Positions 10,022 through 28,782 of a DNA stretch of 64,000 bases are shown here, piece after piece. Source of the DNA: Albibacterium bauzanense (GTDB taxonomy: Bacteria; Bacteroidota; Bacteroidia; Sphingobacteriales; Sphingobacteriaceae); NCBI RefSeq assembly GCF_004339765.1, contig NZ_SMGO01000001.1:62001-126000 (forward strand), written 5' to 3'. The first letter of the stretch is position 1. Every line of letters begins with the position of its first letter. The position numbers and the translations under genes are program-made. The notes beneath the pieces were generated by a model. That model was not told where the DNA came from. It searched no databases and saw only the letters and a program-made list of their open reading frames with translations.

Positions 10022-10048
10022 TAGAGCTACCTTAGAACGGTAGCTCTA
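10022..10048. terminator. Bidirectional hairpin between acyl-CoA dehydrogenase and GLPGLI genes
   Basis: Ten-base arms TAGAGCTACC and GGTAGCTCTA around a 7-nt loop. The stem overlaps the last codons of the minus-strand GLPGLI gene. No strong U-tract on either side, so efficiency is uncertain. Confidence 0.55.
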
Positions 10049-10862
10049 TCCAGTTACTATGTTTCCTAAAATATTCATTGCTATTCCTTTGCATCTCAGC
10101 ACGACCTGCCATAATTCTTAAGCCATACATTTCTCTTATTTGTAGGCTGTTTTCTGTAAAATATTTCTTGTTTGCAAGAAACTCCTTCTTGGTAGTAAGC
10201 ACCGGTTGTTTATCTTTTTTGAAATTTATTGTAATGGACTTAGAAATAATCTCAAGCCTTGTTAATTCAAAATTCCAAAAATTATTGCTATCATTTATTT
10301 TAATAATTAAACCCGGCAAACCTGAAAATTTATAGGGACCATCTGAGATGGGTATATCAGTTGTAAACCAGGCAACCCATTTCCTGTTTGCGAAATTCAA
10401 TTCAGCTTTTTGACATAAAAGCTTATTGATCGTTACTGTATCTTCTTTAATTTCCCATTGAAAAGCCGTCTTATCTTCAATATAATAAAAATGATTAGGG
10501 CCCTTAAAGCCATTCTCAAGAACGTCGAATGTTGTAACCACACTATTTTGTTTTAATATTTGATAATGGAAAATAGTATAAGGATTACTCATTATGTCAC
10601 TATTTTCATTGAGTGTTTCCTGAAGTTCAAGTGAGTCAATAATCCTTTTATTTACAGATTCAAATAATGATATGGAGTCATTGAACAACAATTCCATATA
10701 CTCTTCTTTGATAGAACCTTTATCCGTACTATCAGGTTGATAGGTCATTTTATAGATTGCCTGTTTATCAAAATTAAAACTTTGCTGCTCTTGAGCAAAT
10801 GCTGCAATATTGAAAAGAAATCCGGATAATAATCCGAACATTAGTATGGTTTTCATAAGCAT
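10032..10862 (-). CDS. GLPGLI family secreted protein
   Basis: Bacteroidota-specific protein of the GLPGLI family, 276 aa, with a signal peptide (hydrophobic residues about 5-20, then AFAQEQQ). The family block is plain at GPYKFSGLPGLIIKI (about residues 182-196), preceded by WVAWFTTDIPIS. Molecular function of the family is not established; members usually sit beside TonB-dependent barrels, as here, where the barrel gene lies 60 bases upstream on the same strand. It is probably periplasmic or surface-associated and works with that barrel. An alternative start two codons in (10856) is equally likely. The gene ends within a hairpin. Confidence 0.9.
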   Translation of the reverse strand: MLMKTILMFGLLSGFLFNIAAFAQEQQSFNFDKQAIYKMTYQPDSTDKGSIKEEYMELLFNDSISLFESVNKRIIDSLELQETLNENSDIMSNPYTIFHYQILKQNSVVTTFDVLENGFKGPNHFYYIEDKTAFQWEIKEDTVTINKLLCQKAELNFANRKWVAWFTTDIPISDGPYKFSGLPGLIIKINDSNNFWNFELTRLEIISKSITINFKKDKQPVLTTKKEFLANKKYFTENSLQIREMYGLRIMAGRAEMQRNSNEYFRKHSNWIELPF

Positions 10863-10922
10863 TTAATTAACTGGTCTGATTTTCTAATCTAATTCTGTAC
10901 TTATAGTCTTATTTAATTTGTA

Positions 10923-13568
10923 CTAAAATCTAAAGTGGGTTGAAACTATAATTTGTCTCGGTCGAAGGTCAAAGTAGGTTTCTATTAACTGATAGTCGTT
11001 TGAGAACTGTTGCGTATAGCGTTCATTATTTAATAAATTTTGTCCCGCAATTTCGATGTCTGTTTTCCATTTTTCAATCCGATAGCGATAAGCTATGTCT
11101 AAGAAATACTGATTCTTCAATCCTGGAATATTTGTTCGATAGTATGCATTATTAATGGTCAAACTATGTCGTTCTCCAGGGTAGACCATAATATTAAGAA
11201 AATGATTGTTTGACCGTATACTGTTTCTTGTATCATTCAGGAACTTACTTTCCGAGTATGTAAAAGTGGTACTATACTCAAATCCTATGGCATCCCATTT
11301 ATTGTTTATGATTTCCAGATTACCTCCATATAAATTGAACTTTTGTCTGCCCATGACATCGTTCAACAAGTAATCCGACTCTCCATAGGATAAATTACCG
11401 TTCAGTTTAAAAGTCGTTCTGATTGACCTAAAGAACTTGGATAGCTCTATTGCCAGCTTATGACTGAAGTTATTGCTTTCACGATCTTCAATACTTGTTA
11501 TAGTTCGTCCAGACTGGTCCAATTGACTACGAAAAATATAATCGCGTTTTCCATGCGTATATTGATAAGAAGTACCGGCAAAATAGGCCTTCAGCACATT
11601 CCTGTAATCATAACGGATGCCGGTACTTAAACTTTTATTGCCTAATAAACGGGTTTCATAGCGCTGTATGCTTCGGTAATTATTGACGATATAAGAATTA
11701 TAAAAGTTATCTAAACCACTGTATCTGACTGTATGATTTCCATTTAAGCTGATTTCGTTATAATTGTCAAGCGTATATTGCAGATTTGCAGATGGGTTAA
11801 AGCTGTTCTTGTTTGCCCAATCTAAGGTTTTAACCTTTTGTTGGTTGGCATTGAACAGAGAAAGTGCAAAAGGCAGGTTGAACGACAATTTTAATTTGCT
11901 CGTTTCATATTGAATGTCCATCCCGATCTCTGTTTTTAATTCTTGAAACTGTAAATCATTTACATAATCATCCCCAAGGATATTTTCATTTCCTTGATCA
12001 AAAGTGTGAATCGTTGATGCCATATTATTATTCTGATAGTTTATAGCAAAGCGAGGCGAAAGAGTAAAGTTCTTTATCCTGCGTACAAAGGAGAGATTGT
12101 TCCTTGTGCTAAAAATTCGGTAGTCAACTTGTTGCCGCAGCTGATCATAAGGATTTCCATTATTCAGGATGTCCTCCAACTGACCAGGATTTATTGTAAG
12201 TGTTTGAGGTGTTCGGTTCCATTCAATGCTTGAACTGATATTGACCAGCTGTTTTCCCAGAAAACGTGCCAGAGAAAGGTTGTTCATCAAGCTTTGGTCG
12301 TCGTAATGCTTTTTTTGATTAATGGTCTCCTCTTTGTTAAAGAGTAAATTTCCATGGTCATTATTCCAGCGTTTATGAAACTTCAGACTGTTGCGCAAGT
12401 AGATTGTCTTTTCATTTTTCTCAATCAATAATCCACCAGCAAGATCATTAATCCGGTATTTATTATTTACCGATTCACTTAATAGTATAGATTGATCAGG
12501 AGCGAAAACTTCAGTCAATGTATAACCAGATCGTTTTCTGTAGTCGTTATAATAGGAAATACTGCCCTTCAGCTCCAGTCCGTTTTCCAGTTTCTGTAAA
12601 ATATTGGTTGAGGCAAGAAAGAGACGATTATCCAACCATTTACTTTCCGCAAAATTTGGACTGCTTACTTCTTGAATAGTTAAGAAAGAGGGGCCAGAAG
12701 TATGATTTTCTTGTCGAAAGAACGTACCTCCTGTATAGAATGCCCTAAGACCCCTGCTAGCATCAAACCCAGTGTTATTAGTCTGAAATGAATTGAGCAT
12801 CTGAAAAGTCTTACCGAATGTCATGGGCGTAAGGTTGACATCCCAGAGGGCAGGAGAGAGTCCGACGCCCAGTTTGCCTGTACCTGTTGTCGTGAGCTTT
12901 TTGAGCTCCAGGTTTAGGGAAGCCCTGTCAGAGAAAACCAGTGAATCAAGAATCTTAATAGGCTGATCATTTTCTATAATCTGAACCCTACTGACAGCTT
13001 CAACAGGCATGTTATTATTAATGATACCATATTGACCTTCCATGAGATCCAATTTATTGACCATGTATTTCTGTATCGGCTGTCCCTGATATAATATTTC
13101 ACCATCCTTCATTTCAATTCCGGGCAGTTTTTTAATTATATCAGCTATTACACGATCCTGTTTGGAAGTGAAGGCATCCACATTGTAATTAATGGTATCT
13201 TGTTTTTTAAATATCGGAATGTTCCCTATATTAACCACTTCAAGTTCCCGGCTCTCTTGGTGTAATATATAGGTATAATTACCAGATCTATTAGGAATGA
13301 TGATCGACTTCCTGGCATAGGATAAGTGATTTAAGTCTAACTGTAGACTGTCCAGATCTTTACCATTTTTTACTTCAAGACTGAATGAGCCATCTTGTTC
13401 ACTTCTGGCAAATCCGAGTATGGCTGCCTTGCCGACACCTTTGTAAGATATGTTGACATTTTCAATACCTTTTTGCTGAGCATCGATGATCTTTCCAGAA
13501 ATAATATTCTGTGCAACTCCCAGAAAAGGAGATAAAAGCAAGACGATTATGAGTATGGATCTGGCCAT
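10923..13568 (-). CDS. TonB-dependent-receptor-like outer-membrane barrel with carboxypeptidase-regulatory-like N-domain
   Basis: Large outer-membrane protein, about 881 aa from the ATG at 13568. Order: signal peptide (to about residue 20, GVAQNIISGKI), a carboxypeptidase-regulatory-like beta-sandwich (IIDAQQKGIENVNISYKG), a plug-like part (DRVIADIIKKLPGIEMKDG) and a long beta-barrel ending in STHFRF with the C-terminal Phe typical of barrels. The plug resembles TonB receptors, but a TonB box was not recognised. It transcribes into a GLPGLI gene. The frame can be opened at TTG 13574, but that TTG is the end of a perfect -7 element, so ATG 13568 is preferred, which makes the message practically leaderless. 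A tandem palindrome overlaps the promoter. Confidence 0.85.
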   Translation of the reverse strand: MARSILIIVLLLSPFLGVAQNIISGKIIDAQQKGIENVNISYKGVGKAAILGFARSEQDGSFSLEVKNGKDLDSLQLDLNHLSYARKSIIIPNRSGNYTYILHQESRELEVVNIGNIPIFKKQDTINYNVDAFTSKQDRVIADIIKKLPGIEMKDGEILYQGQPIQKYMVNKLDLMEGQYGIINNNMPVEAVSRVQIIENDQPIKILDSLVFSDRASLNLELKKLTTTGTGKLGVGLSPALWDVNLTPMTFGKTFQMLNSFQTNNTGFDASRGLRAFYTGGTFFRQENHTSGPSFLTIQEVSSPNFAESKWLDNRLFLASTNILQKLENGLELKGSISYYNDYRKRSGYTLTEVFAPDQSILLSESVNNKYRINDLAGGLLIEKNEKTIYLRNSLKFHKRWNNDHGNLLFNKEETINQKKHYDDQSLMNNLSLARFLGKQLVNISSSIEWNRTPQTLTINPGQLEDILNNGNPYDQLRQQVDYRIFSTRNNLSFVRRIKNFTLSPRFAINYQNNNMASTIHTFDQGNENILGDDYVNDLQFQELKTEIGMDIQYETSKLKLSFNLPFALSLFNANQQKVKTLDWANKNSFNPSANLQYTLDNYNEISLNGNHTVRYSGLDNFYNSYIVNNYRSIQRYETRLLGNKSLSTGIRYDYRNVLKAYFAGTSYQYTHGKRDYIFRSQLDQSGRTITSIEDRESNNFSHKLAIELSKFFRSIRTTFKLNGNLSYGESDYLLNDVMGRQKFNLYGGNLEIINNKWDAIGFEYSTTFTYSESKFLNDTRNSIRSNNHFLNIMVYPGERHSLTINNAYYRTNIPGLKNQYFLDIAYRYRIEKWKTDIEIAGQNLLNNERYTQQFSNDYQLIETYFDLRPRQIIVSTHFRF

Positions 13569-13571
13569 AAC

Positions 13572-13616
13572 CAAATGTACTACTAAATATTTAGTTATCG
13601 AACTATTTATTTAGTT
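13572..13616 (-). promoter_or_regulatory. Promoter with tandem palindromic operator (barrel/GLPGLI operon)
   Basis: On the minus strand a -7 element TACATTTG occupies 13572-13579, only three bases before the ATG. Directly upstream is a perfect 14-bp palindrome ACTAAATATTTAGT (13582-13595). Exactly 20 bases further is a second copy, ACTATTTATTTAGT (13602-13615), differing at two positions. Two dimer sites two helical turns apart, the first between -7 and -33, is the layout of a repressor-controlled promoter. Binding protein is inferred, not shown; the BlaI homologue in this window is a candidate. Confidence 0.65.
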
Positions 13617-20217: not shown

Positions 20218-20681
20218 TTAGTTTTGAAGCATCTTTTCAATGGAATATGCGTCTAAATTCCTTGCTATGATCTTGCCTTCGTTGTTAACCAAATAATTTA
20301 AAGGTAATGCTTTGGTGTTGAATCTTTCATAATTGGTAGATTTCGATGGTCTTACCCCTTCGCAAATGTTTGTCCAGGTAAGGGCATCTGCTTCCATTCG
20401 CTAGTAAGACTATCTATTGGTGCTGAATTTTTAAAGTCGATATAATAGAACCCTGTGTTTATTTTATTGGTATGTAAAGTGAATTGATTGTTTTTGACTG
20501 TGGTGGAATCATACACGATCTTAGAGTTCAGGTCTGTTAGCCGAACGATGGTTTCATTTATTTCAGCTTGCCCGGTTATGGTTATAGGAAATTCTTTGGG
20601 CTGATTGCAGGAGGGAAGTAGGTATAGAAGGAAGAAGAAAGCCCAACTGTAAGTTATAGATTTTAGGTTTGGTTTTTTCAT
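20218..20681 (-). pseudogene. Broken DUF4369-thioredoxin (TlpA-type) lipoprotein gene
   Basis: The open frame from 20681 to 20352 gives 109 aa: a lipoprotein signal (lipobox LLPSC), about 55 residues of a DUF4369-like domain (FPITITGQAEINETIVRLTD), then IDSLTSEWKQ and a premature end. In the next frame, from about 20390 to the TAA at 20218-20220, the sequence continues with ALTWTNICEGVRPSKS, then LPLNYLVNNEGKIIARNL, which is the C-terminal half of a TlpA/thioredoxin domain. The redox CxxC part that should lie between is missing. So two lesions are seen: an internal deletion near 20425 and a frameshift near 20388. It is last in the barrel/CBM9/GLPGLI operon. Confidence 0.8.
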
Positions 20682-20700: not shown

Positions 20701-21480
20701 TTAAAGCATATATTCTTTTAGAAGGTCTGAAGCAGATCTTTGATTCTTAAAAAGATCTGATAGAATAGCTTGGAAGCTTAAATTGTTAACGGGTTTACCT
20801 TTTGTTGGAGCTGCTACATTGTTAGCTGGAACTGGCTTCTCTGTTACCTTAGTTGCAAACCAGGTTACATTTTCATAGGGTAGGGCAACGCCTAAAATCA
20901 TACCAGGTAGACCGGAAAATGATTCCGGTCCGCTTGATAGAGGAATCATATCCGTGTAAAACGCTACGATGTAAATTGAATCCATCATCAGTCCATTTGC
21001 CCTGCGACACTGGAAACCTGCTATATCTCGCATTTCATCGGTTATTTTCCATTTGATCTTTCTCAGGCTATCGCTTACCAGGAAGGTTTCTTCGTATACC
21101 TGCTTTTGAATGGTGCTGGTTTTTAAGGTCAGGTCATTGGCAACGGTATTGATCTGGGAAGAAGCTGGCCGGTTACCAAAAAAATTGACAGCCAGGTTGT
21201 TATTTCCATTTGCTGCTGGAATATATAAGCTCTTATCCTTTGAGAAAGTTAGGGTGCTGTTCAGAGTTAAGAACTGTGGTTGTGCTTTCTTATATGCTTC
21301 AAAGGCTTGAACAATTATACCTGAACTATTTTGAGTAATTCCCTTTTCAATCAATGCATACATATTAACTCTTTTTTCAAATTCTATGCTTCCTGATTCG
21401 AGGAAGTGGGCATATTGAGCAAACAGGGATTTTCCGACCAGTATGAATATGATCATTAATATCAGCTTCGTTTTTTTCAT
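20701..21480 (-). CDS. GLPGLI family secreted protein (second copy)
   Basis: Second GLPGLI protein of the window, about 259 aa. Signal peptide KKTKLILMIIFILVGKSLFA, then the mature part; the family block reads GPESFSGLPGMILGV (about residues 185-199), preceded by FYTDMIPLSS. The start is set at ATG 21480 because a longer frame to 21516 would overlap the upstream barrel gene, and the signal peptide begins exactly here. It follows the barrel gene by 10 bases, repeating the barrel-then-GLPGLI order of the 10-13.6 kb operon, so the two proteins probably function together in the envelope. Biochemical role of the family is not known. Confidence 0.88.
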   Translation of the reverse strand: MKKTKLILMIIFILVGKSLFAQYAHFLESGSIEFEKRVNMYALIEKGITQNSSGIIVQAFEAYKKAQPQFLTLNSTLTFSKDKSLYIPAANGNNNLAVNFFGNRPASSQINTVANDLTLKTSTIQKQVYEETFLVSDSLRKIKWKITDEMRDIAGFQCRRANGLMMDSIYIVAFYTDMIPLSSGPESFSGLPGMILGVALPYENVTWFATKVTEKPVPANNVAAPTKGKPVNNLSFQAILSDLFKNQRSASDLLKEYML

Positions 21481-21490
21481 AATCGTATAA

Positions 21491-24262
21491 TTATAAGATT
21501 TTACCGAACTTATCAAAATCCCAAGTTAAAGAAAACATGAAGTAACGTGGGATGGTTGTGTAGCTATTTTGAGAGATTGTGGTGCCAGATGAACTTCTAT
21601 TGAATGGCTTGTTACTCTTTAATAGATCATTTACCGATACTGATAACTTGAGATTATCCTTTTCGAGAAATTTCTTACCTAATGAACTATTTACAACGAT
21701 AGTTTTCATGTCCTGGTTAAATGCATCCGTTTTTGCCTGAAAACTATAACGTGCGTCTGAACGTAATTCAATTTTTCCGGGCAAATAGATATTAATTGAA
21801 AGGTAACTTTCAAAGCCTCTTCCACTATTATTTAATTGATAAGAAGAAGAAGAGATGCTCTTTCTGTAAGTTGGTCCGACTGTTAGATAGAGGTCATACT
21901 TTTCTATTTTTGATTTGGATAGATATAAATTGCCTGAATAGGTTTGTGAGCTTCTATAATTGATTACATTGTTTGAAACACCATAATCGTAATTGCCCGT
22001 AAACCTTGTATATAATCCGAGCTGGGTATCTAGTCTTTTGATTTTTTTGCCATAGGATCCGTATAAGCTCATTTGTTTTTGCGTTTTATCAGACAAGTTT
22101 ATAGAACGGTAAATGGTTTTACCCGCATCATCAGTAGTCATGCTGTTAATAATTGGGTTTGAAATAGTTGAATAGGAGCCACTTAGGTTAATGTTTCTGC
22201 TATTTAATACTTTATATGAATAATAAAAAAAGTCAAAACGATTGCTAAAGGCAGGATCAAGATCAGGATTACCTTCTATAATGTTCAATGGGTCTGTATT
22301 GGTACTAATTGGTTGCAATTGATCAATACTAGGTTGTATGGTTGCTCCGGAGTAATATAGATTGAAAATTTTTTGTGGAGAGAATTGGAGTCTATAGTTC
22401 GCAAGTGGATTCCAATAGATGAAATTTCGTTTGTAGGAAGTGTTTGTGTCCTGATCAATTTGATTTAGGTTGACTGCTGTTGTCTTTGTTCCAAATTGAA
22501 GAGAATGTTTGTCTTTTTTATAATTGAATGTGGCTCCCCCTTGATTGGAATATTGATTTAGAAGAAGATTGCTGCTAAATTCATCGATCAATTCATCATA
22601 ATTTCCGGATGTAGATTTGTTAAAAGATTCCCGAAGGGAGGACTCCTTATTGATTCCTAACCCATAATTTAAAGTAAGGGAAAAGGCTTTTGATAGCATT
22701 TCAGTATAAGTGATGTTGCTGTTAAAGATACCGCTCTGTGAAGTTCCTGGTTTGTATTGATCGATATTTTGTATGCTATCTGGCTGACCTTGCGTATCAT
22801 AAAATTCATTATTGGAATTCAGATAGCCTTTTGTTTGCATGCGATTCAAGGATTGCGTTAAGTTGATTGAGAAGGTTCTGCCAGGTTTGTTAAGGCGCTT
22901 GTTGTAAAGAGCATCGATCTTGAAACGCTGCTGATCATTATTATTATTGATAGTACGATTGCTTCTGTTGAGTATCGTATTATCAACACCTAGTGTAGAG
23001 GCCAGATAATTGTTTGACTCCTCTCCATTACCGATCATACCATTGACTGTTATTTTTAAGGAAGAAGCGGTGTCGGGAGTCATCTGATAAATAATGTCCA
23101 ACGCTTTTTCGTTATTCAGGTTATGAAATTGTTGTTCTGAATTGCTATTTAATATCCCTGAAGGTAATGTGTTTTGTGAAATAGAATTCCGTTCACCTGT
23201 GACTTCGAGTGATCCTATTTTGAAATTAGTGTTGATGGATTCTTTATCATCATTCCATTTTGTATCATAATGAGCGCCACCTGACCGACCAATTGGAATT
23301 CCTTGTCCATCATATTGAGGTCTCGATCCTCCTAGGTCTACCGTGATTCCTCCATTTACGAAGTTTACACCACTTCCAGAAGGAGCATATTTGCTAGCAT
23401 CACTAAAATTTAATCCGATGGTGCCATTATTTGCGATGTTCGTATAGGCCGAAAGCTTTTGTTTCTCTTGAAATAGGTTGATCATGGCTTGTCCTTTGTA
23501 AAATTCATCTGTTCCTCCGCCGGCATCTATTTTTCCGAAATAGCCTTCTTTCTTATCGTCTTTTAGTTGAAGGTTGAGTGTCTTGGTCCTTTCACCATCA
23601 TCTATTCCAGTAAATATAGCTTGATCACTTTTCTTATCGTATAATTGGACTTTGTCGATCATATCACCTCTCAAATTTCGGGTAACGAGTGTCGGATCAT
23701 CTCCAAAAAACTCTTCACCATCGACTAATACCTTTCTTACTGTTTCTCCGTGGGCGGTGATTTTTCCATCTTGATCTACTTGTATTCCGGGAAGTTGTTT
23801 AAGGAGATCTTCTACTTTAGCATTGGGTTGAATCACGAATGCGCGTGCGTCGTATTCTGTTGTATCTCCTTTTAGTTTGATGGCTGCTATGCCGCCTGTT
23901 ATGATTACTTCACTTAATAAGCGCTCTTTAAGGATTAGGTTCAGGTTGCCAAAATCATAGGATTGATTTAGAGAGTCAAGTGTAAAGGTTTCTACATAAT
24001 CTGCATAATCGGGATAAGTTACCAATAAAATAAATGTTCCTTTTTGGAGATCTGTGAGCTCGAAAACTCCATCTTTTGTTGATCTATTGAACTTGACCAG
24101 AATTGAATCTGCCGCGTTTAATACAGTAATGCTGGCATTGACGAGACCTACATTCACAGCGGTATCAATCACGGTTCCTTTGATCTGATAATTTGATTGA
24201 GCTAAAGCAGGGATGCTGCTTAGTAGAAATAAGATGATGGCTATAATTGATAAGTATCTCAT
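21491..24262 (-). CDS. TonB-dependent-receptor-like outer-membrane barrel (I)
   Basis: Outer-membrane protein of 923 aa. Signal peptide to about residue 21 (PALAQSN), carboxypeptidase-regulatory-like domain (IKGTVIDTAVNVGLVNASI), plug-like region with AKVEDLLKQLPGIQVDQDG and VLVDGEEFFGDDP (about residues 145-200), then a long barrel rich in Asn/Ser/Tyr. The region NIIEGNPDLDPAFSNRFDF is a common segment of this barrel family. A Gly-rich loop at about 330-345 suggests a surface loop. It lies 26 bases after the CBM9/thioredoxin chimera gene and 10 bases before the GLPGLI gene. It is paralogous to the barrel at 26008-28782 (same order of domains and matching motifs). Transport substrate unknown. 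Confidence 0.85.
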   Translation of the reverse strand: MRYLSIIAIILFLLSSIPALAQSNYQIKGTVIDTAVNVGLVNASITVLNAADSILVKFNRSTKDGVFELTDLQKGTFILLVTYPDYADYVETFTLDSLNQSYDFGNLNLILKERLLSEVIITGGIAAIKLKGDTTEYDARAFVIQPNAKVEDLLKQLPGIQVDQDGKITAHGETVRKVLVDGEEFFGDDPTLVTRNLRGDMIDKVQLYDKKSDQAIFTGIDDGERTKTLNLQLKDDKKEGYFGKIDAGGGTDEFYKGQAMINLFQEKQKLSAYTNIANNGTIGLNFSDASKYAPSGSGVNFVNGGITVDLGGSRPQYDGQGIPIGRSGGAHYDTKWNDDKESINTNFKIGSLEVTGERNSISQNTLPSGILNSNSEQQFHNLNNEKALDIIYQMTPDTASSLKITVNGMIGNGEESNNYLASTLGVDNTILNRSNRTINNNNDQQRFKIDALYNKRLNKPGRTFSINLTQSLNRMQTKGYLNSNNEFYDTQGQPDSIQNIDQYKPGTSQSGIFNSNITYTEMLSKAFSLTLNYGLGINKESSLRESFNKSTSGNYDELIDEFSSNLLLNQYSNQGGATFNYKKDKHSLQFGTKTTAVNLNQIDQDTNTSYKRNFIYWNPLANYRLQFSPQKIFNLYYSGATIQPSIDQLQPISTNTDPLNIIEGNPDLDPAFSNRFDFFYYSYKVLNSRNINLSGSYSTISNPIINSMTTDDAGKTIYRSINLSDKTQKQMSLYGSYGKKIKRLDTQLGLYTRFTGNYDYGVSNNVINYRSSQTYSGNLYLSKSKIEKYDLYLTVGPTYRKSISSSSYQLNNSGRGFESYLSINIYLPGKIELRSDARYSFQAKTDAFNQDMKTIVVNSSLGKKFLEKDNLKLSVSVNDLLKSNKPFNRSSSGTTISQNSYTTIPRYFMFSLTWDFDKFGKIL

Positions 24263-24288: not shown

Positions 24289-25113
24289 TTATGGTTCTGT
24301 TGGGAATACCTGAGCTAACAATCTGGTGATTCTTATAAAGTCATCACTGCCCTCTCTTCTATAAATGATTTTTCCCATTGGGTCGATAATTACTGTTGTT
24401 GGATAAGCCCCGATATCAAACTTCGCTGTTATGCTTTCCTCTTTAATTTTCTGATCTTGCCATAAATTCACCCAATCCATATGTTTTTCTTTAATGATTG
24501 CTTTTGCTTTTGTATATTGCATTTCATCGTTAAATTGTGCTGCCACCCTGATGCCTTCTAAATTATAAATGGAAATTGCTGGTTCTTGAATTTCCTTTAT
24601 ACCGCTTACATTGATTTCCTTAAATACATCGTTCACTATTGCATTGAGAGAGGATTTTAAAGAGTCTACTTTCGCTAGAGCTTCTTTTGTAGTGTCATTT
24701 TTTAGACGCCTAACTATTCTTATATTTTCTCCTAATAGGTTACTTTTCTCTGAGGGGATGGGGATAGGGAATGTGACTACAGCATTTGTTTCGTTGTTTT
24801 TTTCAACAGACAAGTTTATTGTAAAACTTATTCCATCCATGACTTTTTCATTAGCGTATCCATCACTTGTAAGCAGAGTTAAGTAAAGGTTATTATCATT
24901 ATTGGATATCGTATAATAAATACGATTATTTGTATTGTAAGCATGGAATCTGTTATCCCATTCTGTTGTTTTTCCGTCAATTTTGATACTCGATGGTGCT
25001 TGAACACTTTCTTCCTGAACCTTAGGCAGATTTTGCGCATGGACTATTCCTATAGATAAGAATGATAGGATAGAAGTAAGAATCGTTGTTTGTGTGAATT
25101 TTGACTTTCTCAT
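24289..25113 (-). CDS. Secreted chimera: CBM9-like N-domain with C-terminal half of a thioredoxin fold
   Basis: Protein of 274 aa with a signal peptide (to HAQ at about 27). Residues 28-194 match the neighbouring protein at 25133-25978 throughout: QNLPKVQEESVQAPSSIKID, GKTTEW (CBM9/DOMON-like), NRIYYTIS, and SIYNLEGIRVAAQF. At about residue 195 (near base 24528) the likeness stops. The remainder (AKAIIKEKHMDWVNLWQD, FDIGAYPTTVIIDPMGKIIY) is the second half of a TlpA/thioredoxin domain, including the cis-Pro segment but without CxxC. A thiol-redox function is therefore not expected. It may be a live fusion or a fossil of a deletion that joined two neighbouring genes. The frame is intact and tightly packed in the operon. 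Confidence 0.75.
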   Translation of the reverse strand: MRKSKFTQTTILTSILSFLSIGIVHAQNLPKVQEESVQAPSSIKIDGKTTEWDNRFHAYNTNNRIYYTISNNDNNLYLTLLTSDGYANEKVMDGISFTINLSVEKNNETNAVVTFPIPIPSEKSNLLGENIRIVRRLKNDTTKEALAKVDSLKSSLNAIVNDVFKEINVSGIKEIQEPAISIYNLEGIRVAAQFNDEMQYTKAKAIIKEKHMDWVNLWQDQKIKEESITAKFDIGAYPTTVIIDPMGKIIYRREGSDDFIRITRLLAQVFPTEP

Positions 25114-25132: not shown

Positions 25133-25978
25133 TTACTTTAGTGTATATTCTCCCCATAGATCAGTGGTGCTTTGGGTATATAAAACATTTGGATCTGATG
25201 TGCCGACGAAAATTGGTGCTGGCATTTCATTAGGTGGTAACACAGAGTTTTGATCACTTAATTTAATATTGTAACTGAAAGGTTGATTCTGCTCGGATAG
25301 CATTAAGTATTTTAGTGGTATAGCCAGTTCGTAGGTGAAAGCCAGTTTATAATCGAATGCCGCGGCTACTTGAATTCCTAAAAGGTTATAGATAGAAACT
25401 GGATTATCAGTAACTTCTGGAATACCTGTTACCTGTATCCCTTTATACTGGAGATTGATTTCATTGTTGGCAATATTCATGAGAGAATCGATTTGTTTTT
25501 TGTATTGCACAGTATCAACATTATATTCTAAATAGGTATTCCATAAGGCATCACCGATTAGATCTGATTGTGGTTGCATACCTTTTTGTACTGGCTTGAC
25601 TTTTATAGGATATAGGATAGCTATATTATTAATATCCTTAGCTTTTTCGTTATTGTTTTTTTGGGTAGAGAGGCTCGTGGTAAAGGTTATACCTCCGCTG
25701 GTTATTTTAGTCACAGCATAATAATCATCCGTATGTATGGTTAAGTAAAGTTTTTCATTATCATTGGAAACTGTATAGAAGATTCGATTAATCGGATTGT
25801 AGGCTTGAAGCCCATTGTTCCACTCGTTTAGTTTGCCATCTATTTTGATATTTGATGGCGCATGAACACTGGATTCTTGTACTTTAGGAAGGTTTTGTGC
25901 ATTTGTAGCCTCTAGTATTAAAAAGAAGGATAATGAAGAAAGCATAATTGCTATTAGCTTGAATTTATATCTTTTCAT
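25133..25978 (-). CDS. Secreted CBM9/DOMON-like domain protein
   Basis: Protein of 281 aa, signal peptide to about residue 27 (LEATNAQ), then one domain of the CBM9-like beta-sandwich type recognised by APSNIKIDGKLNEW, NRIFYTVSNDNEKLYLTI and the closing YELAIPLKYL plus FSYNIKLSDQ. Characterised CBM9-like domains bind carbohydrate or act as accessory domains of secreted enzymes; ligand here unknown. It is the intact paralogue of the protein encoded next (24289-25113), with which it shares the first roughly 195 residues, so the pair arose by tandem duplication. Spacing of 19 bases to the next gene and 29 to the previous barrel gene indicates one operon. Confidence 0.72.
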   Translation of the reverse strand: MKRYKFKLIAIMLSSLSFFLILEATNAQNLPKVQESSVHAPSNIKIDGKLNEWNNGLQAYNPINRIFYTVSNDNEKLYLTIHTDDYYAVTKITSGGITFTTSLSTQKNNNEKAKDINNIAILYPIKVKPVQKGMQPQSDLIGDALWNTYLEYNVDTVQYKKQIDSLMNIANNEINLQYKGIQVTGIPEVTDNPVSIYNLLGIQVAAAFDYKLAFTYELAIPLKYLMLSEQNQPFSYNIKLSDQNSVLPPNEMPAPIFVGTSDPNVLYTQSTTDLWGEYTLK

Positions 25979-26007
25979 AGTTGAATGATTTTTAATGTTG
26001 CAGCTAT

Positions 26008-28782
26008 CTATTGTCTAATAAAGCTTCCATCACCTCGACGAGGGAGAGGTTGTCCGTTTTGTTGAGGCGTACCGCTCCACTTTTGTAAATTCATGCCGAA
26101 TGTTATCATAAAATACCTGCTTAATGTATTAGTTTGCGTGTCGATAATGGAGTTTTCAGTTATAATACGATTGATAAAATTGTTTTGATTGAATATATCA
26201 AAGGCTTCTAGACGTAAAGTCGCGCCTATTTTATTTGAGAATCGTTTTTCTAAATAGGTGTTTAAAACAAAAGGGTTTTTTGTAATATTCGTACCGATAC
26301 CACTTCGGTAATTTTTGCTGGCATAATAACCGAAGTGAAACCCTTTTGGGAGATAGATGTTGCCATCTATATTAAACGCAAAGGTTTGTGTGTTAATGTC
26401 TGAAGATGAGGGGATAGAGTTAGTTGATTTTATGACATCATAAGAAAGATAAGGGTTGATTTCTAACCAGTCTGTTGGTTGCATTCTGGGCCCGAATCTT
26501 TCAATATATCTCCATATCGATGTTGTGTTTTTGAGATTATTACTCATTGAGATTGAATGCATATTACTGATAAGACCATCTAACGCGAAGTAGTATTTTC
26601 GAGAAGAAAATTGTTTGGATAAGCTATAGTTGGCATTGAATGAATAATCTCCATCGAGGTTTAAGAAATGGGTCTCATACTTTAGGCTGTTATATGCATC
26701 CTCAATTAATAACAGATTTCTTACTACTTGATCATTTATGAATGTGGTGTTTAACCTGACCGAATAGGCAAACTGAGAATTGGCTATATAACGATTGTAG
26801 TTTGCATTAATAGTGTGTGTAAAAGAAGGCTTTAAGTCAGGATTCCCTATTATTGAGTTTTGTGGATTAGATACATCTCTAACTGGTTGTAGCTGATTGA
26901 AATTGGGTTCGATTGGGCTGCCAGAGTAGTTAATTTGAAATAAATGTTGATTTGACCATTGGTATTGAAATCTTGCAATCGGGATCAAATTGAAGTTCGT
27001 TTTATGGGTGCTATGATTTGCTCCAGTTCCCTCCAAAACTGTGGGAATAGCATTTACTCCTAGTGAGAAATTATATTTTCTTTCAGTGAATAAATAATTG
27101 AGTGCTAACCTGGTTTCAATGAAAGAATAGTTATAGCTGTTGCTTAAGGAATCAATAGGATTGGAAATGTTGCCAGAAATAATATCACTTGTGATTTTGC
27201 TATTATCGTAGGAACGGTAATTGATTTGTCCGTTAAACTGTAATTTAGATTTAGTACTTAGTGGCTCAGAATAGGTTGTACTGGCTCGGTAATTATTAAT
27301 CTGGTTTTCGTTGTTGATTTGTTGATGAATTAATGAATCTTTTAAGATGAGGTCTGAATCGTTCTCAAAATAGGTGACTCTTGTATTTTGTTCTGTATCG
27401 TTATTTTGATTGGAGATGTCACTGCTTAGTTGCACCGTAAAGTTCCTGCCAAGTTTATTGAAAATGTGCTGATAAAATAGGACTCCTCCAATATCTGGAA
27501 CGGTTGAATTGTTTTTATTTAACCCATATTGATTTTGATGAATAAGACCGGACTGCATACTGGATAGATTATTATCTGACGAGCTCGTATGATAGGTCAG
27601 TTTAGGGCTTATACGTAAAAAGTTTGCTTTATTAATTTCATATTCGAACAAGGAAGTGAAACTATGGATCTTGTTATTTATATTTTGGTTTTCTTCGTTT
27701 TTGGAAAATGTAGTGCCTAATGTGCTGAATTGTTGTAAATCGGTTTTATTAATTGAATTTATTTGAGAGTTATTATATGAGTAACTTAGGTTTATGTATA
27801 TCTTTTCATTTAATGTGTTGCTGTAGCTAAAAGTAGGGTTGAGGGTTTGAGTTGTTCCACCGCTGTTGGCGAGGTTCATTGCATTGTTGGAAATTGGCTT
27901 GTTGGAATTAAATTCTGGGTTTGCAATACCATTTACAGTGTTTGACAGGTTTGCATTTAGTCCGATGGTTTCGTTGGCATTTATGCGAGTGCCAAAAAGT
28001 TGACCCTCATATCGCTCATTGTTTCCTGCCCCTGTATTAATGCGGGCCATATTTCCAATCGACCTGTCTACTTTTGTGGTAAGGTTAAGGATTTTTTTAG
28101 GTTCACCCTCTTTAATTCCAGTTCTGGCTACCTGATCACCATAATCATTGACGATTTGAACTTTTTCAACAATTTCGGCAGGGAGGTTTTTAATTGTCGA
28201 AGAGACATCTCCGCCGAGGAAGTCTCTTCCATTGAGTCTGGCTTTCGTAATTAACTCGCCTTGATGAGTTAAAGTACCATCTCTGCTCACTTGCATTCCC
28301 TCCATTTTTTTGAGAAGTTCATCAACAGTAGCAAACTCTCTAACTTGATAGCCGGAAGCACGATATTCGATTGTGTCGGTTTTATAAGTGATATTGGGTG
28401 TTCCATCAATGGTTACTTGTGCGAGCATTCTACTATCAGGCACCAGCATAACAGGATCTAAGATGATTTTGGATGCTCTGTCATCGTTTAATAGATGATA
28501 GGTAATTGGCTTGTAACCTAAACTGTTAACAGTAAGATAAAAGGTGGCTGATTTGACTCCTTTAAATACAAATATTCCATCCTCGTTGGTACTGGTAGAA
28601 AGGGAATCTGTATTATATTTTAAGATTAAGGTTGCTCCAGGAACAGAGTTTCTGGCTGAATCTAATACGATTCCACTAACTTCCCAAGATGTTATGAGCG
28701 GATTAAGACTCGCCGCTTGAGGTATTTGGGCAATTAATTTATCAACGCTTGTAGCAAAAAGTAATAGAAATACCCACCTCAT
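26008..28782 (-). CDS. TonB-dependent-receptor-like outer-membrane barrel (II)
   Basis: Outer-membrane protein of 924 aa, first gene of the operon. It has a weak signal peptide (RWVFLLLFATSVDKLIAQ), a regulatory-like domain (WEVSGIVLDSARNSVPGATL), a plug-like segment (ATVDELLKKMEGMQVSRDG and ARLNGRDFLGGDV) and a barrel with SIIGNPDLKPSFTHTINAN. The C-terminus ends in a polar Gly/Pro/Arg tail (QPLPRRGDGSFIRQ) instead of the usual terminal aromatic strand, so an extension follows the last strand. Paralogue of the barrel at 21491-24262. No strong TAnnTTTG promoter was seen in the 195 bases upstream. Function unknown; probably uptake or export of a substrate bound by the CBM9-like proteins. Confidence 0.83.
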   Translation of the reverse strand: MRWVFLLLFATSVDKLIAQIPQAASLNPLITSWEVSGIVLDSARNSVPGATLILKYNTDSLSTSTNEDGIFVFKGVKSATFYLTVNSLGYKPITYHLLNDDRASKIILDPVMLVPDSRMLAQVTIDGTPNITYKTDTIEYRASGYQVREFATVDELLKKMEGMQVSRDGTLTHQGELITKARLNGRDFLGGDVSSTIKNLPAEIVEKVQIVNDYGDQVARTGIKEGEPKKILNLTTKVDRSIGNMARINTGAGNNERYEGQLFGTRINANETIGLNANLSNTVNGIANPEFNSNKPISNNAMNLANSGGTTQTLNPTFSYSNTLNEKIYINLSYSYNNSQINSINKTDLQQFSTLGTTFSKNEENQNINNKIHSFTSLFEYEINKANFLRISPKLTYHTSSSDNNLSSMQSGLIHQNQYGLNKNNSTVPDIGGVLFYQHIFNKLGRNFTVQLSSDISNQNNDTEQNTRVTYFENDSDLILKDSLIHQQINNENQINNYRASTTYSEPLSTKSKLQFNGQINYRSYDNSKITSDIISGNISNPIDSLSNSYNYSFIETRLALNYLFTERKYNFSLGVNAIPTVLEGTGANHSTHKTNFNLIPIARFQYQWSNQHLFQINYSGSPIEPNFNQLQPVRDVSNPQNSIIGNPDLKPSFTHTINANYNRYIANSQFAYSVRLNTTFINDQVVRNLLLIEDAYNSLKYETHFLNLDGDYSFNANYSLSKQFSSRKYYFALDGLISNMHSISMSNNLKNTTSIWRYIERFGPRMQPTDWLEINPYLSYDVIKSTNSIPSSSDINTQTFAFNIDGNIYLPKGFHFGYYASKNYRSGIGTNITKNPFVLNTYLEKRFSNKIGATLRLEAFDIFNQNNFINRIITENSIIDTQTNTLSRYFMITFGMNLQKWSGTPQQNGQPLPRRGDGSFIRQ

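Follow-up and report, generated by a model that had tools for sequence, protein, structure and literature searches.

Deletion between neighbouring genes can form chimeric genes, a process known as gene fusion by deletion. Two protein families are relevant to the case described here, namely the TlpA/ResA-type thioredoxin domain and a secreted, CBM9-like family of the Sphingobacteriaceae. No report of a fusion between such CBM9-like and TlpA proteins was found in the literature. Here, we analysed a stretch of 64,000 nucleotides of Albibacterium bauzanense (contig NZ_SMGO01000001.1, positions 62,001 to 126,000 of the forward strand), referred to below as the window, in which the front of a CBM9-like protein and the back of a TlpA protein are joined in frame. 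This join is confirmed as real. Neither half amounts to a complete fold, so that gene loss most likely left the chimera behind as a by-product, rather than producing a working new protein.

Gene Setting of the Chimeric Reading Frame

The chimera lies among closely packed genes that are all encoded on the minus strand (Table 1). Its reading frame is uninterrupted from the ATG at position 25113 to the stop codon at 24291–24289. The earlier note, made from the DNA letters, had described a cleanly joined frame with a CBM9-like and a TlpA source, and both points are borne out, the latter by separate homologies. With gaps of 19 bp on its upstream and 26 bp on its downstream side, the chimera stays within the tight gene run. 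The signal-peptide-like segment at its N-terminus (MRKSKFTQTTILTSILSFLSIGIVHAQ) was read straight from the sequence.

The second OMP_b-brl_3 protein (OMP2) and the GLPGLI family protein form a pair that is conserved in all 14 relatives examined, where it lacks the CBM9 or TlpA neighbours found here. The pair is also present in the same-genus genome, again without these neighbours. A putative second pair of this kind was recognized by reading at 10032–13574 on the minus strand, where a GLPGLI-like protein comes after a large protein resembling those of the outer membrane.

Table 1. Coordinates of the chimera, its parts and the genes around it (positions in the window).
Feature	Position	Strand	Basis and remarks
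OMP_b-brl_3 outer-membrane protein (OMP1)	26008..28782	-	Pfam, neighbourhoods; this type follows CBM9-like genes in many relatives
Intact CBM9-like paralogue	25133..25978	-	ORF, AlphaFold model
Chimeric ORF, 274 aa	24289..25113	-	ORF and translation
N part, residues 1–201, front of a CBM9-like beta-sandwich gene	24511..25113	-	Homology and AlphaFold strands of the neighbour
Join, residues 201–206, a few residues of alignment play	24496..24513	-	CBM9-like and TlpA alignments
C part, residues 202–274, back half of a TlpA thioredoxin domain	24292..24510	-	Homology, secondary structure
Second OMP_b-brl_3 protein (OMP2)	21491..24262	-	Pfam
GLPGLI family protein	20701..21516	-	TIGR01200; conserved partner of OMP2
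TlpA pseudogene, internally deleted and frameshifted	20220..20681	-	DUF4369 N-terminus (109-aa ORF 20352–20681), then cis-Pro C-terminus (KALPLNYLVNNEGKIIARNL) in another frame

The Front of a CBM9-Like Protein

The N part shares 46% identity with the intact neighbour over residues 1–206 (E 4e-41) and 53% with a relative in Pedobacter montanisoli (G093; E 1.4e-56), and it matches many relatives in the family genomes at E-values of 1e-56 to 1e-20. The CBM9-like family is widespread in the Sphingobacteriaceae, with matches at E ≤ 1e-8 in 185 of 401 genomes. In the chimera, the N-terminal two thirds are conserved, including the signal, IDGK-EW and SIYN-GI, and the score of the N part lies near the median of the family. 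Both the neighbour and the Pedobacter montanisoli relative continue into three more beta strands, which are absent from the chimera. In the AlphaFold model of the neighbour, these correspond to E214–221, E233–240 and E272–279, and none of them has a counterpart in the chimera, where TlpA sequence from residue 202 onwards replaces the last three CBM9-like strands ending in WGEYTLAK.

The intact neighbour was modelled as a confident beta-sandwich with helices (pLDDT 86.6, pTM 0.83, 42-row alignment). A Foldseek search with this model placed the CBM9 entries 1i82, 7nwo and 7nwn at ranks 2–4 with probabilities of 0.87–0.99, as weak matches (best E 0.008, TM 0.34–0.52). A Pfam search of the family gave no consistent family match and no CBM9 match. 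The name CBM9-like thus denotes a predicted likeness in fold only.

This unannotated secreted family commonly lies directly before an OMP_b-brl_3 gene in the Sphingobacteriaceae, as in L031, L034–L040, L043, L044, L105, L106, L113 and L120. Across the kept loci, 27 of its 102 genes have this arrangement. In the window (25133–28782, minus strand), the OMP gene precedes the CBM9-like gene.

The Back of a TlpA Thioredoxin Domain

The C part matches the C-terminal halves of TlpA proteins of 370–450 aa; the best-matching protein (E = 1.6e-12) is 373 aa long. Its last 78 residues match TlpA protein ends in 105 of the 401 family genomes at E ≤ 1e-4, a count that includes the window's own gene. Among solved structures, a profile of the C part matched the thiol-disulfide oxidoreductase 3fw2 (residues 84–148 of 150, E 7.6e-16), and the single sequence matched a second such enzyme, 2kuc (E 6e-4). 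The C part stays below the curated Pfam and NCBIfam cut-offs for Thioredoxin_8 (15.7 versus 27 bits) and ResA (16.2 versus 170 bits). It scores above 98% of the TlpA fragments, a pool biased by having been gathered partly through similarity to the chimera.

The segment comprises helix 3, the cis-Pro loop, strands 4–5 and helix 4 of the fold, while the CxxC half is missing. No CxxC occurs anywhere in the chimeric protein, and the homology to TlpA begins after the CxxC and strand 3. The cis-Pro residue (P238), W214, G247 and K248 are kept. The cis-Pro segment is present as AYPTTVIIDPMGKII, and P238 and G247 are invariant in alignment A5. Several mixed alignments misplaced the TlpA fragments, and the fold was read from alignment A4. 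AlphaFold assigned H200–209, E240–243, E249–253 and H256–269 to this part. Sequence, profile and secondary structure therefore agree with the earlier claim that the protein ends in the second half of a TlpA-type fold lacking CxxC. Structure prediction, which had been named as a check on the C-terminus, gave this part of the chimera the secondary structure of a thioredoxin second half, but the chimera model did not yield a confident fold.

Position of the Join

The likeness to CBM9-like proteins extends to EMQYT (residue 201; HFQYT in the CBM9 genes), and the likeness to TlpA starts at KAKAII. The earlier note had let the resemblance to the neighbour cover the first 195 residues and stop near base 24528. 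The resemblance itself holds, but it reaches to about residue 201, which moves the join by about five residues, slightly 3′. The CBM9 strand IRVAAQFND is similar to strand 3 of thioredoxin, which allows alignments to TlpA to stretch back through the join to about residue 183. Counted by eye over the stretch before the join, about 13 of 19 positions are identical to CBM9 sequences versus 4 of 19 for TlpA. We therefore favour a CBM9 origin for the stretch from about residue 183 to the join, as judged from these sequence identities.

Search for the Fusion in Other Genomes

No match spanning both parts was present among the 401 Sphingobacteriaceae genomes. A scan of 85,000 species with the chimeric protein alone returned no matches. 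The same scan with the family alignment returned 171 relatives, of which 78 loci were kept, and none of these holds a protein with both homologies; records very close to the window's own genome, such as those of sister strains, may be left out of this set. The genus of the nearest N-part relative was covered by 147 genomes, in which every protein matched by the join region was either CBM9-like or TlpA and none was both. The one other same-genus genome searched has no CBM9-like gene. Two candidates for further fusions, L300 (residues 5–270) and L247, were rejected as ordinary members of the CBM9-like family, since both end in WGEYTLAK or a sequence close to it. An old, conserved architecture, which relatives carrying the same fusion would have indicated, thus finds no support in the 401 family genomes, the 78 kept loci or the 147 genus genomes.

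Folding and Function of the Product

The AlphaFold model of the chimera has a pLDDT of 50.2 and a pTM of 0.38, compared with a pLDDT of 86.6 for the intact neighbour, although the alignment behind the chimera's score was thin and mixed, with 13 rows versus 42 for the neighbour. A Foldseek search of this model against the PDB matched nothing, as expected at a pLDDT of 50. Codon use and GC3 are normal in both halves and resemble those of other window genes. Neither half displays sequence decay, each scoring like ordinary members of its family. Such absence of decay is predicted both by a young join and by a selected one. TlpA chemistry is impossible for the chimera because it lacks CxxC, and the CBM9-like sandwich is incomplete because three strands are missing.

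A functional product can nevertheless be imagined, in which the CBM9 strand at residues 188–195 replaces thioredoxin strand 3 and a beta-alpha-beta-beta-alpha periplasmic subdomain binds peptides or sugars without redox chemistry. The absence of decay would fit this proposal, as would the TlpA alignments that pass the join back to about residue 183 and the modelled order of strand, helix, short helix, strand, strand and helix after residue 188. Against it, model confidence is very low at residues 164–225 (pLDDT below 50), the model is unmatched in the PDB, no relative was found to retain the fusion, and both parent domains are incomplete. We regard this proposal as unlikely, and doubt more generally that the chimeric protein is functional. 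Still less probable is a fold-compatible join by which a periplasmic CBM9-like protein gained a half-thioredoxin lacking the active site, with selection maintaining the result as a new protein. Of the earlier statement that a new protein had been created, the in-frame chimera stands, while "new protein" goes beyond the evidence, given the truncated folds and the unconfident model.

Origin of the Chimera

The second TlpA gene of the operon is itself broken. Its DUF4369 remnant resembles the N-terminus of TlpA proteins of about 400 aa in other genomes, and its C-terminus is that of the same proteins, in another frame. Compared with a relative, about 250 codons have been lost (positions ~90–346). 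This pseudogene was rejected as the donor of the C part, as it still has its own C-terminus, which belongs to another subfamily.

The halves missing from the chimera were sought elsewhere in the genome. For the CBM9 tail, the only match was the intact neighbour. The front half of the TlpA gene was not found, its matches falling in other ORFs; those examined (L005–L007) are complete TlpA proteins of 365–376 aa. A partial AhpC-TSA match (G000:C2:472179) was rejected as a surviving front half, since its ORF of 170 aa reads as a complete protein, which we take from its sequence to be glutathione-peroxidase-like.

Mucilaginibacter myungsuensis has a TlpA gene 40 bp behind a CBM9-like gene on the same strand, which is the order required for fusion by deletion. 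In an uncultured Mucilaginibacter, a redoxin-like protein of a different type comes after two CBM9-like genes. The exact ancestral pair was not seen, because the TlpA protein beside CBM9 in Mucilaginibacter belongs to a different subfamily from the donor of the chimera, whose best match is at 39% identity. The same-genus genome does not qualify as the unfused ancestor, since it has OMP2-GLPGLI in another setting and lacks a CBM9-like gene, and no close relative with an unfused locus occurred in the searched sets. The comparison with relatives suggested in the earlier note thus yielded separate CBM9 and TlpA genes in M. myungsuensis, but not in a close relative with the same subfamilies.

We infer that a deletion inside the operon joined approximately codon 201 of the CBM9-like gene to approximately codon 300 of a TlpA gene just downstream. 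A junction in frame would have had a chance of one in three, and about 1.2 kb may have been lost if the ancestor resembled the Mucilaginibacter arrangement. In the periplasm, to which it would be exported, the product would be a beta-sandwich without its last three strands, followed by a thioredoxin domain without its active-site half, and it most likely has no activity in redox chemistry or sugar binding. The chimera would then be a young, still open by-product of gene loss. This combination of deletion, probable lack of function and youth is the best explanation and, in our judgement, a likely one. A deletion is the simplest account because two TlpA genes within 5 kb have lost internal DNA. 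The deletion from a CBM9-like into a TlpA gene proposed by the earlier note thus gains indirect support from the lost halves, the Mucilaginibacter order, the uniqueness of the fusion and the broken TlpA gene, which falls short of proof.

The TlpA half might instead have come by recombination with incoming DNA or an ectopic copy. A search of the genome for further TlpA proteins of this subfamily found none, and both the locus and the CBM9 genes are missing from the same-genus genome, which on this reading would make the region mobile or rearranged. However, the C part resembles host genes in base composition and codon use, and a deletion accounts in one event for the loss of both missing halves, so that we consider an imported TlpA half improbable. 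The occurrence of the fusion in a single genome could also point to an assembly artefact, but the join is in frame, the contig around it measures 1.3 Mb, the assembly comprises 6 contigs (99.25% complete, 0.12% contaminated), and searches of the rest of the genome did not recover the missing halves. We consider an artefact very improbable.

Comparison with Known Systems

The locus is ordinary in kind and offers a clean example of a bacterial operon in which two genes were joined within both of their domains, with a further gene of the same type, broken by a comparable deletion, beside it. Should the protein be produced and stable, it would give a rare view of a gene being born; otherwise, the locus illustrates that open reading frames left behind by gene loss will be annotated as proteins.

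Compared with the CBM9-like secreted proteins of the Sphingobacteriaceae, the chimera shares the signal-peptide-like start and the IKIDGK-x-x-EW motif and keeps the conserved positions of the family up to residue 201, but lacks the last three strands, including the ending WGEYTLAK. Compared with the TlpA/ResA-type domain (Pfam AhpC-TSA/Thioredoxin_8; DUF4369-TlpA; 3fw2), residues 202–271 match the second half, including the cis-Pro segment, whereas the CxxC motif, strands 1–3, helices 1–2 and the DUF4369 region are absent. As in neighbouring genes fused by deletion, halves of two families are joined in frame inside an operon. In contrast to these, the chimera is joined within both domains instead of between them, and no intact domain is carried over.
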